Assembly: GCA_947380945.1 (NCBI GenBank)
Contig: CANCTD010000002.1
Span: 1 to 50,280, forward strand
Direction of reading: 5' to 3'
DNA length: 50,280 nucleotides
DNA from: Comamonadaceae bacterium
GTDB taxonomy: Bacteria; Pseudomonadota; Gammaproteobacteria; Burkholderiales; Burkholderiaceae_C
Part shown: positions 12,014 to 17,615 of the stretch, one piece after another
Position numbering within the stretch: position 1 is the stretch's first letter
Layout of the letters: each line of letters begins with the position of its first letter
Translations under genes and position numbers: made by a program
The notes under the pieces: generated by a model
Databases searched by the model: none
Told to the model about the DNA's origin: nothing
The model's input: only the letters and a program-made list of their open reading frames with translations

Positions 12014-12622
12014 TCAGCGCCGGTCTACCAGCGCATGCGCAATGGTACCGAGATCCACATATTCGAGCTCGCTTCCCACCGGAACCCCGCGCGCCAGCCG
12101 TGTCGGGCGCAGGCCCCGTGCCTTCAAACCCTCGCTGATGACATGGGCGGTGGCCTCGCCCTCGGCGGTGAAGTTGGTTGCCAGAATCACCTCGCGCACG
12201 ACGCCGTCGCCCGCACGTGCAAACAAGGCTTCAATCCCAATGTCTTTGGGGCCTATGCCGTCCAGCGGACTGAGCTTGCCCATCAGCACAAAATACAAGC
12301 CCCGGTAGGCCTTGGTACGCTCCAGCGCCGCCTGGTCAGCCGGTGTTTCCACCACGCACAACAGCGTGGCGTCGCGCTGCGGATTGGCGCAGACCTCGCA
12401 CAGGCCCGATTGGGCAAAGGTGTTGCAACGCTGGCAATGCTGCACATGGTCCACCGCGTGGAGGAGCGCACGCCCGAGTTGCTGGGCCGCGCCACGGTCA
12501 TGCTGCAACAGGTGAAACGCCATGCGCTGCGCCGACTTCTGCCCTACGCCGGGCAGGCGGCGCAATGCGGCGATCAGTACCTCCAGCGCTGCGCCGTCGC
12601 CAGCCCCCGCGTGTGGCTCCAC
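12014..12622 (-). CDS. recR: Recombination protein RecR
   Basis: [20 protein letters not shown], CxxC zinc motif (CQRC..CEVC), Toprim region; dnaX-ybaB-recR order. Confidence 0.96.
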
Positions 12623-12623
12623 G

Positions 12624-12977
12624 TCAGAACGGCAGCTTCATGCCGCCCGGCAGGCTGGGCATACCGGCAGTGACCTTGCCCATCTTGGCGTTGCTGGTTT
12701 CCTCGACGGCGCGGGCGGCGGCATTGAATGCGGCTGCGACCAGGTCTTCGAGCATGTCCTTGTCATCAGCCAGCAGGCTGGGGTCAATCTGCACCCGCCG
12801 GACCTCGTGTTTGCAGGTCATGGTCACTTTGACCAGACCGGAGCCCGCTTCGCCGCTGACCTCGATGCTGCCCAACTCCTCCTGCGCGCGCTTCATGTTT
12901 TCCTGCATGGCCTGCGCCTGTTTCATGAGGCCGGCGAGTTGTCCTTTGTTGAACATGGAATTTTCCTTAGAGGTCAA
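12624..12977 (-). CDS. ybaB: YbaB/EbfC family nucleoid-associated protein
   Basis: [28 protein letters not shown]; first 6 residues possibly extra (Met at 12959). Confidence 0.94.
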
Positions 12978-12989
12978 TAAAACGATAGG

Positions 12990-14939
12990 TCACAAGGGCT
13001 GGATGGAGCCGGGGACAATTTTCGCCCCAAACTCCTGCACCATGCGCTGCACAAACGGGTCGGACTCGATCAGGCGGCGTGCCGCGTCCAGACGGTTTTG
13101 GCTGGCGGCCTGGCTGCGGCGCACCGGGCAATCGCTGACGCGCCCGATTTCCACCACCAGGTCCACCGGGTAACCGGCCGCGCGCACGGCGGCCGTCAGC
13201 CGCTCGCGGCTGGAAGCCTGGTTAAGCGATTCGCGCTCCACCCGCAGCAGCCATTGGCCTTCGTCCCGGGCCATCAACTGCGACTGCAAGGCGAGCTCGC
13301 GCACCATGGCATTCACCGACCCGCTGTCCACCAGTGCTTGCACAACCCCAAACCAGAAAGCGCCCTCTTCGGTAGGCACCAGGGGTGCTGCGGCCGCCGG
13401 CTCGGGCGCTGCCGGGCTGGCGCTGCGCACCGGAATACCAATCAAGCGGGTGGGCGGCGCGGGTGCATGCGGCGCGGCAGTCACGGTCGCGGCGTCCGCT
13501 TCAGCGGCCGGCATGTCGGCAAACAGGTGCGCATCGCCTGCGGGGAGGGCCTCCAGCGCCTCCTCAGCCGGCCATGCCGCCTGCGGCCCGGCGTGCTTGT
13601 CGCGCTCCAGGTTCATTTCCTGCACTACCGGGTCGGCATCGTGCGCCGGATCAGGCGCGGCGGCAGCCCGGGCGGCCGGCGCGGTGTGCGGGGTGCCGGC
13701 TTGGTTTGCGGCGGCCGCATCCACGCCCGGCGCGCTGTCGCGCACCGGCACATGCCGCCCGGGCGGCGTAGGCGCTGCGCCGGGGGAACTATTCAGGCTT
13801 TTTTTTTCCTGCAAGGCGGCAGGCACGGCGCGCGCGGTAGCCGGCTTGAAGGCCAGAAGCCGCAGCAAGACCATGGTCAATGCGGCGTATTCATCCGGGG
13901 CCAGGCCCAAATCGGCACGCCCGTGCAGACACAGGCTGTACAGCAACTGCGTTTCATCGGCGGGCAGCAGTGCGGCGAGCTGGGCAATCCGCGCCGCATC
14001 GGGATCGCTGTCCTCGTCGGTACCGGGGGCGGCCACCTGGTACACCGCCATGCGCTGCAACACCGAGGCCATGTCTTCGAGGGCGGCAGCGGCGCTCAAC
14101 CCGTGTGCGCGCAAGACTTCGCACAGGCCGCACACGGCCGCACCATCGCCCTGGGCCAAAGCATCTAACAGCTGGAACACATAGGACTGGTCCACGCTGC
14201 CCAGCATCTGCCGCACCATCGCCTCTTCGATCCGGCCGGCGCCAAAAGCAATCGCCTGGTCGGTGAGACTGAGGGCGTCGCGCATGGAGCCGCGCGCCGC
14301 GCGCGCGAGCAGGCGCAAAGCCCCGGCATCGGAGTTGATGTGTTCGGCGGCCAAAACCGTCTGCAAATGTTCGCGCACGGTCTGCGGCGCCATAGGCCGC
14401 AGGCTGAACTGCAAACAACGCGAGAGCACGGTAACCGGTACTTTTTGCGGGTCGGTGGTGGCCAGCACAAATTTCAGGTAGTCCGGCGGCTCCTCCAGCG
14501 TCTTGAGCATGGCGTTGAAAGCGTGACCGGTGAGCATGTGCACCTCGTCGATCATGAAGACCTTGAAGCGCCCCTGCACCGGCTTGTACACCGATTGCTC
14601 CAGCAGGGATTGCATTTCGTCAACACTGCGGTTGGAGGCCGCGTCCAACTCGGTGTAGTCCACAAAACGCCCGCTGTCGATGTCCACACAGGCCTGGCAG
14701 ACCCCACAGGGCGTGGCGGTGATGCCGCCCTGCCCGTCAGCGCCTACGCAGTTGAGCGATTTGGCCAGTATCCGCGCCACGGTGGTTTTGCCCACGCCGC
14801 GCGTGCCGGTAAACAGGTAAGCATGGTGCAAACGCCCGGACGAGAGCGCATTGGACAGCGCCTGCACCACATGGCCCTGGCCCACCATTTCCGCGAAATT
14901 GCGCGGGCGGTATTTGCGGGCAAGCACAAGATAAGACAT
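12990..14939 (-). CDS. dnaX: DNA polymerase III subunits gamma/tau
   Basis: MSYLVLARKYRPRNFAEMVGQGHVVQALSNAL, GTRGVGKTTVARILAKSLNC, MLTGHAFNAMLKTLEEPP. Confidence 0.97.
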   Translation of the reverse strand: MSYLVLARKYRPRNFAEMVGQGHVVQALSNALSSGRLHHAYLFTGTRGVGKTTVARILAKSLNCVGADGQGGITATPCGVCQACVDIDSGRFVDYTELDAASNRSVDEMQSLLEQSVYKPVQGRFKVFMIDEVHMLTGHAFNAMLKTLEEPPDYLKFVLATTDPQKVPVTVLSRCLQFSLRPMAPQTVREHLQTVLAAEHINSDAGALRLLARAARGSMRDALSLTDQAIAFGAGRIEEAMVRQMLGSVDQSYVFQLLDALAQGDGAAVCGLCEVLRAHGLSAAAALEDMASVLQRMAVYQVAAPGTDEDSDPDAARIAQLAALLPADETQLLYSLCLHGRADLGLAPDEYAALTMVLLRLLAFKPATARAVPAALQEKKSLNSSPGAAPTPPGRHVPVRDSAPGVDAAAANQAGTPHTAPAARAAAAPDPAHDADPVVQEMNLERDKHAGPQAAWPAEEALEALPAGDAHLFADMPAAEADAATVTAAPHAPAPPTRLIGIPVRSASPAAPEPAAAAPLVPTEEGAFWFGVVQALVDSGSVNAMVRELALQSQLMARDEGQWLLRVERESLNQASSRERLTAAVRAAGYPVDLVVEIGRVSDCPVRRSQAASQNRLDAARRLIESDPFVQRMVQEFGAKIVPGSIQPL

Positions 14940-14991: not shown

Positions 14992-15085
14992 GACGGGCCT
15001 TCCCGCATGGTGAAGCGGCCAACCGGGTCAGGTGGGGAACCAAGCAGCCCTAACTGCAGAGCCAGTGCCGGGGTCAAGGCTCGTC
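14992..15085 (+). ncRNA. ffs: SRP RNA (4.5S RNA, small type)
   Basis: Conserved domain-IV segment GGGTCAGGTGGGGAACCAAGCAGCCC; 10-bp terminal helix GACGGGCCTT / AAGGCTCGTC; TACAAT -10 at 14979-14984; T5 run downstream; located upstream of dnaX as in other bacteria. Confidence 0.92.
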
Positions 15086-15146
15086 ACCTTTTTCGCCCCT
15101 CGCCACATTGGTTGCGGGCCTCCACCCCCATCCGAGAGCCTGCGCC

Positions 15147-16137: not shown

Positions 16138-16224
16138 TTACTTCTTAGGCTTGTTGAACCAGTTCGCCAGCATGAAGAACAGGGCCAGGAACCACAAAAT
16201 CAACAGGATATGGTGAACTTTCAT
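16138..16224 (-). CDS. 28-aa single-TM microprotein downstream of pucC: MKVHHILLILWFLALFFMLANWFNKPKK
   Basis: Start overlaps pucC stop (ATGA); AAGGAGA SD with 6-nt spacing; hydrophobic core and basic C-terminus. Not in ORF track as an independent ORF. Confidence 0.75.
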   Translation of the reverse strand: MKVHHILLILWFLALFFMLANWFNKPKK

Positions 16225-17615
16225 GCAGACTCTCCTTGAAAAAGGGCGGGATGGGAAGGGGAACGTAACAGGGGAAACATGGCCACCATGGTGACCAGCA
16301 GCAGGACAACTTCCAGCGCATACACCGACAGATAACCCGTGACCGAGTTGCTCACGTGGGCAACCAGGTCGCGCATGATACCGCCCCAGGCTACGGCAAC
16401 GCCGGCGGCAGTGGCCTGCACCGCGCCCCAAGCGCCCAAGGCCAAGCCGGCCTGTTCTTTGGGTGCCAGATTCATGGTGGCGGTGAGTGTTCCATGGCCG
16501 AAGATGCCGGCGCCAAAGCCGATCAACAAGGTGCCCACGACAAACATCCAGGTTGCGCCACTCAGCGCCGACCCGATAAGGAGCAAAAAGGCAGGAATAC
16601 CGATGTAGGTGCCCCAGATCGCCATGCGGAATGGATCAAAGCCCCGGCTCAAAATGCGCGAAGCCCAGGCAAAGCCTGCCAAACCGCCCACGGCCAATGT
16701 GGCCGTCAAGGCGGTTGTCATACCCACGGACAAACCCAGAATCTCGCCGCCGAATGGCTCAAGCAGCACATCTTCCATGGTGAAAGCCATGGTCCCCAGC
16801 CCCACGGCGACCAAACGCCGTTTGGCAAGGTCCCCTTCCGTAAAACGTCGCCATGCCTGGGCAAAGTCCTGCTCGGCTTGCGCCGGCGCCGGTCGGGATG
16901 CGCCAATGGTTTCCTGCTTCCAAACGGCAATGCCGTTGAGCACCATGGTGAACACTGCCGCCCCCTGGATTACCTCAATCAGCGCGCCGGGGCTGAATTC
17001 GCGCAGCCAGTAACCAAACAACAAGGCGCTGACAACCATGCCGGCCAGCAGCATGACGTACATCAGGCCCACCACTTTGGGCTGATCTTCCACAGGGGCC
17101 AGGTCGGTCGCCAGCGCCAGGCCGGCTGTTTGTGTGGTGTGCAAACCGGCACCCACGAGCAAAAAGGCCAGGCCAGCAGCCAACTGCCCGACCCAGGCCG
17201 GTACGCTCGCCGACTGGCCGGCACCGGCCAGCACCAGCAGGGCGAAGGGCATGATGGCCAGCCCGCCAAATTGGACCAGACTGCCCATCCAGATATATGG
17301 AACACGCCGCCAGCCGATAGCCGATACATGCCGGTCGGAGCGGAATCCGATGAGCGCGCGAAACGGGGCAAATACCAGCGGCATGGCAACCATCACACCC
17401 ACCAGGGATGCGGGCACCTTCAACTCGACAATCATCACGCGGTTGAGTGTGCCGATCAACAGCACCAGGGCCATGCCGACCGAGACCTGAAACAGGGCCA
17501 GGCGCATCAGGCGACCCAGCGGCAAATCGTCCGACGCGACGTCAGCAAAGGGCAGCAAACGCACCCACCAGGGCGGCTGCGGCTTGAACGAAGCGTCTTG
17601 GGTCAAGGTGCGCAT
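16221..17615 (-). CDS. pucC: PucC-family (BCD) light-harvesting complex assembly / MFS-like protein
   Basis: LPFADVASDDLPLGRLMRLALFQVSVGMALVLLIGTLNRVMIVEL; APFRALIGFRSD; directly downstream of pucBA. Confidence 0.92.
   Translation of the reverse strand: MRTLTQDASFKPQPPWWVRLLPFADVASDDLPLGRLMRLALFQVSVGMALVLLIGTLNRVMIVELKVPASLVGVMVAMPLVFAPFRALIGFRSDRHVSAIGWRRVPYIWMGSLVQFGGLAIMPFALLVLAGAGQSASVPAWVGQLAAGLAFLLVGAGLHTTQTAGLALATDLAPVEDQPKVVGLMYVMLLAGMVVSALLFGYWLREFSPGALIEVIQGAAVFTMVLNGIAVWKQETIGASRPAPAQAEQDFAQAWRRFTEGDLAKRRLVAVGLGTMAFTMEDVLLEPFGGEILGLSVGMTTALTATLAVGGLAGFAWASRILSRGFDPFRMAIWGTYIGIPAFLLLIGSALSGATWMFVVGTLLIGFGAGIFGHGTLTATMNLAPKEQAGLALGAWGAVQATAAGVAVAWGGIMRDLVAHVSNSVTGYLSVYALEVVLLLVTMVAMFPLLRSPSHPALFQGESA

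Follow-up and report, generated by a model that had tools for sequence, protein, structure and literature searches.

The A9 run in dnaX of Comamonadaceae as a probable programmed slippage site

The dnaX gene of the Comamonadaceae bacterium considered here contains a run of nine adenines (A9) that is probably a programmed slippage site of the Thermus type, at which slippage by RNA polymerase would lead to the gamma form of DnaX. In the proposed scheme, the polymerase would realign on the A9 run to give dnaX mRNAs with more or fewer adenines; transcripts with nine (or 9+3n) would be translated into full-length tau, and those in either other register would run into a stop a few codons on, to yield gamma, predicted to comprise domains I-III and a short lysine-containing tail, without the polymerase-binding domain V. 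We infer that the rate of slippage is high enough to be useful, that most of it takes place during transcription, and that the cell both makes gamma and uses it. Gamma may or may not matter outside enterobacteria and Thermus; a 2012 review noted that most other bacteria keep no dnaX frameshift signature and may not make gamma (PMC3290774). The sequences described below suggest that a large, mostly environmental family is under strong selection for making it. In the open-access literature we found no report of dnaX slippage in Betaproteobacteria, Comamonadaceae, Acidovorax or Burkholderia; such a report may exist elsewhere.

The run and its place in dnaX

The window, that is, the whole stretch of 50,280 nucleotides that was analysed, carries dnaX on its minus strand, with the following features:

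12990..14939, minus strand: dnaX, full-length tau frame, 649 amino acids (open reading frame; Pfam DNA_pol3_delta2, DNAX_ATPase_lid, DNA_pol3_gamma3, DNA_pol3_tau_5)
13851..14228, minus strand: gamma/tau domain III, residues 238-363, closing the conserved core retained in the predicted gamma (Pfam PF12169)
13799..13807, minus strand: A9 run, putatively slippery, codons 378-381, GAA AAA AAA AGC (sequence; conserved in relatives)
13794..13796, minus strand: TGA in the deletion (A8 / A11) frame, predicted short product of 381 amino acids (sequence; relatives)
13789..13791, minus strand: TAG in the insertion (A10, or ribosomal -1) frame, predicted short product of 383 amino acids (sequence; relatives)
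13005..13337, minus strand: tau domain V, residues 535-645, in the full-length product only (Pfam PF12170)

From codons 378-381 onward the gene reads GAA AAA AAA AGC CTG AAT AGT, i.e. G-A9-GCCTGAATAG. The minus strand of 13789-13808 is GAAAAAAAAAGCCTGAATAG, with the nine adenines at 13807-13799, and this site sequence was matched once in the assembly. An mRNA with ten adenines would continue AAG CCT GAA TAG and end after 383 amino acids, and one with eight would continue GCC TGA and end after 381. A first-pass annotation, made from the sequence before the present analysis, had given the sequence and coordinates of the run within the 649-codon open reading frame (14939-12990) exactly, and its two shifted-frame ends were also correct. 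Its placement of the site just past domains I-III agrees with the Pfam boundaries, since domain III ends at residue 363 and the run starts from codon 378. With the A9 run placed after domain III and ahead of tau domain V, both predicted short products would resemble gamma. The tau frame is unbroken across the run, and domain V is encoded downstream of it. The 50 kb window has no second A9, whichever strand is read, and 0.13 would be expected; five matches occur across the 1.9 Mb assembly.

Some neighbouring features can be mentioned here. The genes ybaB/ebfC and recR lie downstream of dnaX (12014-12977, minus strand), an arrangement resembling the customary dnaX-ybaB-recR operon, and a bacterial small SRP RNA (14992-15088, plus strand; RF00169, 60.5 bits) is divergent from dnaX. 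Further along is a gene for a PUCC-family transporter (16221-17615, minus strand; PF03209, E 5e-148), the family name of which hints at a photosynthetic member of the bacterial family.

The best-known parallel is the dnaX gene of Thermus thermophilus, which is described in PMC5009743 and PMC1088944 (the sources through which Larsen et al. 2000 is cited here) as having an A9 run, tau in a single open reading frame, stops in both other frames and products in a 1:1 ratio. Here, likewise, the A9 is on the sense strand, tau occupies one open frame, stops lie near in both other frames, and the short product would end before the C-terminal tau domain. The two organisms belong to different phyla, and RNA heterogeneity and the 1:1 ratio were demonstrated in Thermus, whereas the present case is described at the level of sequence. 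In its sequence-level features, the gene appears to be a family-wide case of the Thermus kind.

Conservation of the run and of the stops that follow it

Sequences of dnaX were sampled from the same genus, from named public genomes, and from the same family, the order (150 genomes), the phylum and one other family that bears an A9 run. It should be kept in mind that all counts among relatives concern phylogenetically linked sequences and not independent events. A run of at least nine adenines is present in 168 of 206 distinct DnaX sequences of the same family (165 A9 and three A10), and the codon phase xAA AAA AAA Axx is common to 167 of these carriers, amongst which are named members of Rhodoferax, Ramlibacter, Acidovorax, Hydrogenophaga, Delftia, Curvibacter, Caenimonas and Extensimonas. 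In a family tree built from domains I-III of DnaX only, the clade that holds the dnaX of the window, and with it Comamonadaceae, has 173 rows and a support of 98; the run occurs in 167, is absent from five, and one sequence is cut off. One carrier of the 168 falls outside this clade, and the deeper branches of the family lack the run almost wholly. Retention of A9 across the clade is greater than expected by chance. The idea that some other homopolymer takes its place in family members without the run was rejected, as their longest runs are mostly of G or C, 4-6 bases long and inconsistent. In Ottowia beijingensis (L110), dnaX has A6 (GAA AAA ACT CTG AAG) where its kin have A9, along with a shorter open reading frame of 500 codons; either the site has been lost or the assembly is wrong here.

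The start of the run lies 4 to 42 codons past the domain III motif (median 10) and its flanks vary. Among A9 carriers the nine adenines are invariant, and most linker columns upstream and far downstream are 30-60% identical. Elsewhere in these genes lysine is encoded by AAA in 39% of cases and by AAG in 61%; the two core lysine codons of the run are AAA in every carrier, and never AAG.

A stop follows within 10 codons of the run in the deletion frame in 165 of the 168 genes, in the insertion frame in 159, and in both frames in 156; within 15 codons both stops are found in 164, which leaves four genes lacking the pair. Away from the run, stops in both frames within 10 codons are found at 4.1% (domains I-III) or 7.5% (linker) of sites, and within 15 codons at 8-13%. 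When synonymous codons were shuffled with the amino acids kept (200 trials), a mean of 29 of 168 genes, and a maximum of 45, had both stops within 10 codons, and 35 of 168 had them within 15. Translation in the deletion frame would stop at the second codon past the run in 148 of 168 genes (TGA in 121, TAA in 19 and TAG in eight). The codon that follows CTG starts with A in 121 of 124 cases and the codon that follows CTA starts with A or G in 24 of 24, these being the combinations that spell a stop. On the tree, the stop has altered in type or position, without being lost, on at least 31 occasions in the deletion frame and at least 61 in the insertion frame. These counts argue for selection on ending translation in both wrong frames, beyond what the peptide itself would need. 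An alignment of related dnaX genes had been proposed in the first-pass annotation as a check on its suggestion that gamma is made through slippage on A9, and in such an alignment the run and the out-of-frame stops are indeed kept, despite the synonymous AAG; the suggestion is supported to that extent.

It was earlier considered that slippage leading to truncation would be hard to spot by comparative means, there being no new coding sequence to compare (PMC1088944). A two-frame stop trap, tested against synonymous shuffles, may offer a way round this, and other genes could be searched for the same pattern.

Sister genera and the choice between polymerase and ribosome

In two genera of the family (L404-L408 and L409-L425) A9 is missing, and its place at the beginning of the dnaX linker is taken by an in-frame A_AAA_AAG, the heptamer known from E. 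coli. A -1 stop lies 1 to 5 codons on in 22 of 22 of these genes, and all 22 have a G-rich element resembling a Shine–Dalgarno (SD) sequence 15-17 nt upstream, with a spacing wider than the classical one and a function that is putative. A stop in the other frame within 10 codons is found in six of 22, compared with 165 of 168 A9 genes (Fisher p 9e-16, a value to be taken as a guide only because the sequences are related). A tree suggests that the A_AAA_AAG genera are nested inside the A9 clade, but we do not adopt this arrangement as settled, since in AU tests neither a single A9 clade (p 0.42) nor a single A_AAA_AAG clade (p 0.36) is rejected; switches between the two kinds of site may have gone in either direction and may have happened once or several times.

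Signals of the kind that stimulate ribosomal frameshifting were sought around the A9 run. An upstream SD-like element shows no enrichment in the A9 genes (11 of 168, and 11 of 168 at a control position), and downstream structure shows no excess stability, with a mean folding z of -0.38 over the 168 relatives. The corresponding mean for the A_AAA_AAG relatives is -0.55; predicted structure does not tell the two sets apart, and both are unremarkable for GC-rich DNA. For dnaX of the window, the downstream 40-80 nt give folding z values of +0.4 to -1.6. The GC-rich self-complementary sequence to which the first-pass annotation drew attention is thus not borne out as a structural signal, and a downstream hairpin as stimulator finds no support, given the lack of excess stability in the relatives.

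The pattern of stops favours transcription over translation as the level at which slippage would occur at A9. A -1 ribosomal shift needs a stop in the insertion frame only, whereas realignment in both directions, or the addition of two adenines, needs stops in both frames; the stop in the deletion frame (equivalent to that of a +2 insertion) is conserved in the A9 genes, yet weak in the A_AAA_AAG sister genera. The earlier view that transcriptional and translational slippage could not be told apart from sequence was therefore somewhat too pessimistic, although it holds in so far as proof can come only from RNA. Against transcriptional slippage, the RNA polymerase of E. coli showed little of it on about eight adenines, and the poly(A) runs tested with it yielded no deletions (PMC6260861). 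The stop in the deletion frame may therefore be there for +2 insertions, or may rest on other properties of the polymerase.

An alternative is that gamma arises from a homogeneous mRNA by -1 ribosomal frameshifting at A_AAA_AAA within the run, as in E. coli. There are likenesses to E. coli dnaX: the gene and the predicted outcome are the same, the A-rich site comes after domain III, and a -1 stop (TAG, 13789-13791) lies just past it, as does a conserved insertion-frame stop in the relatives (159 of 168 within 10 codons); moreover, the classical A_AAA_AAG is found at the same place in the two sister genera. However, that stop is not exclusive. The deletion-frame stop, for which a -1 shift has no need, is kept as well, and is the closer and more constant of the two (148 of 168 at the second codon). 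Unlike the E. coli gene, that of the window reads A_AAA_AAA_AGC, with no AAG as second codon of a heptamer, and the A9 genes show neither SD enrichment nor, by the folding values above, extra downstream structure. A_AAA_AAA is reported to be a far weaker ribosomal site than A_AAA_AAG (PMC5009743), and the nine adenines are invariant even though two or three of them exceed what the heptamer requires. We regard this route as unlikely. Another translational route, bidirectional in this case, is that ribosomes slide both ways on the adenines and stop in either frame. E. coli ribosomes do slide forwards and backwards on poly(A), ending at out-of-frame stops, but truncated product was scarce with A9 or A10 and robust only from A11 (PMC4363877), and the dnaX run offers only two whole AAA codons in frame, which makes sliding improbable as the source of gamma.

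It could also be argued that nothing is programmed here, that the EKK(T/S) peptide is what the protein needs, and that the stops serve only to limit waste from accidental slippage. Out-of-frame stops would curb damage at any slippery site, and the EKK peptide encoded at the run is itself conserved among carriers. Yet GAG AAG AAG would encode the same peptide free of risk and the core lysines are AAA throughout; KK is absent from the linker in deeper members of the family (0 of 34), and the two sister genera have exchanged the run for another known frameshift site and not for a safe sequence. We give this explanation very little credence. That the run might be a phase-variable contingency tract, slipping at the DNA level during replication, or an artefact of assembly, seems extremely improbable, given that 165 of the 168 distinct genes, which come from many assemblies, have nine adenines and an unbroken frame beyond them, and that tau, as part of DNA polymerase III, is expected to be essential. 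A gene that would fit such an origin is that of L076 (CAIMBE010000032.1), in which A10 breaks the frame to leave an open reading frame of 423 codons, with tau domain V in another frame; this may reflect an indel, be it in the genome or in its assembly, or else a reversed two-ORF layout as in Chlorobium.

Polymerase slippage on A9 thus remains the preferred reading for the carriers of the run, and it has apparently been swapped with ribosomal frameshifting inside one family. On balance we lean towards a broader proposal, in which most genera would make gamma through an A9 on which the polymerase slips, with stops trapping both frames, and two genera by -1 ribosomal frameshifting on A_AAA_AAG with a one-frame stop, the means being exchanged and the product kept, with related A-run sites in other families of the order. 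If so, the mechanism could be read from sequence alone, by whether stops guard two frames or one. The A_AAA_AAG sister genera also provide a natural comparison for the interchangeability of slippage by polymerase and by ribosome.

Other dnaX systems and other families of the order

Short forms of DnaX are obtained in other ways elsewhere. In the two-ORF dnaX genes of Chlorobium and others, a poly(A) run, mostly A10, lies at the tau/gamma junction and transcriptional realignment has been suggested (Antonov et al. 2013, PMC3711429). There, the frame in the DNA is that of gamma and tau needs the shift, whereas here tau is in frame; only the L076 gene resembles that layout. Caulobacter crescentus, as cited in PMC5009743, makes gamma by proteolysis of tau. 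The need for a short DnaX form is the same, but the process is post-translational and involves no slippery run.

Most of the order has no such run in dnaX (150 genomes sampled). In another family (f8; loci L118, L119, L320-L322, L325, L328-L331, L334, L336 and L338), an A9 is found much further downstream, at codons 458-645, in the context GCT (C/G)AA AAA AAA ACT GA; the insertion-frame stop is at the second codon in 13 of 13 genes and a deletion-frame stop lies within 10 codons in nine of 13. Runs are also present in the separate families f50, f48 and f13 (A10), and in others. In five loci from other families (L142, L177, L187, L192 and L224), A8-A9 lies directly before an FDG(D/N)W motif in the C-terminal part of tau, the codons TTT GAC/GAT of which give a TGA in the insertion frame after the run.
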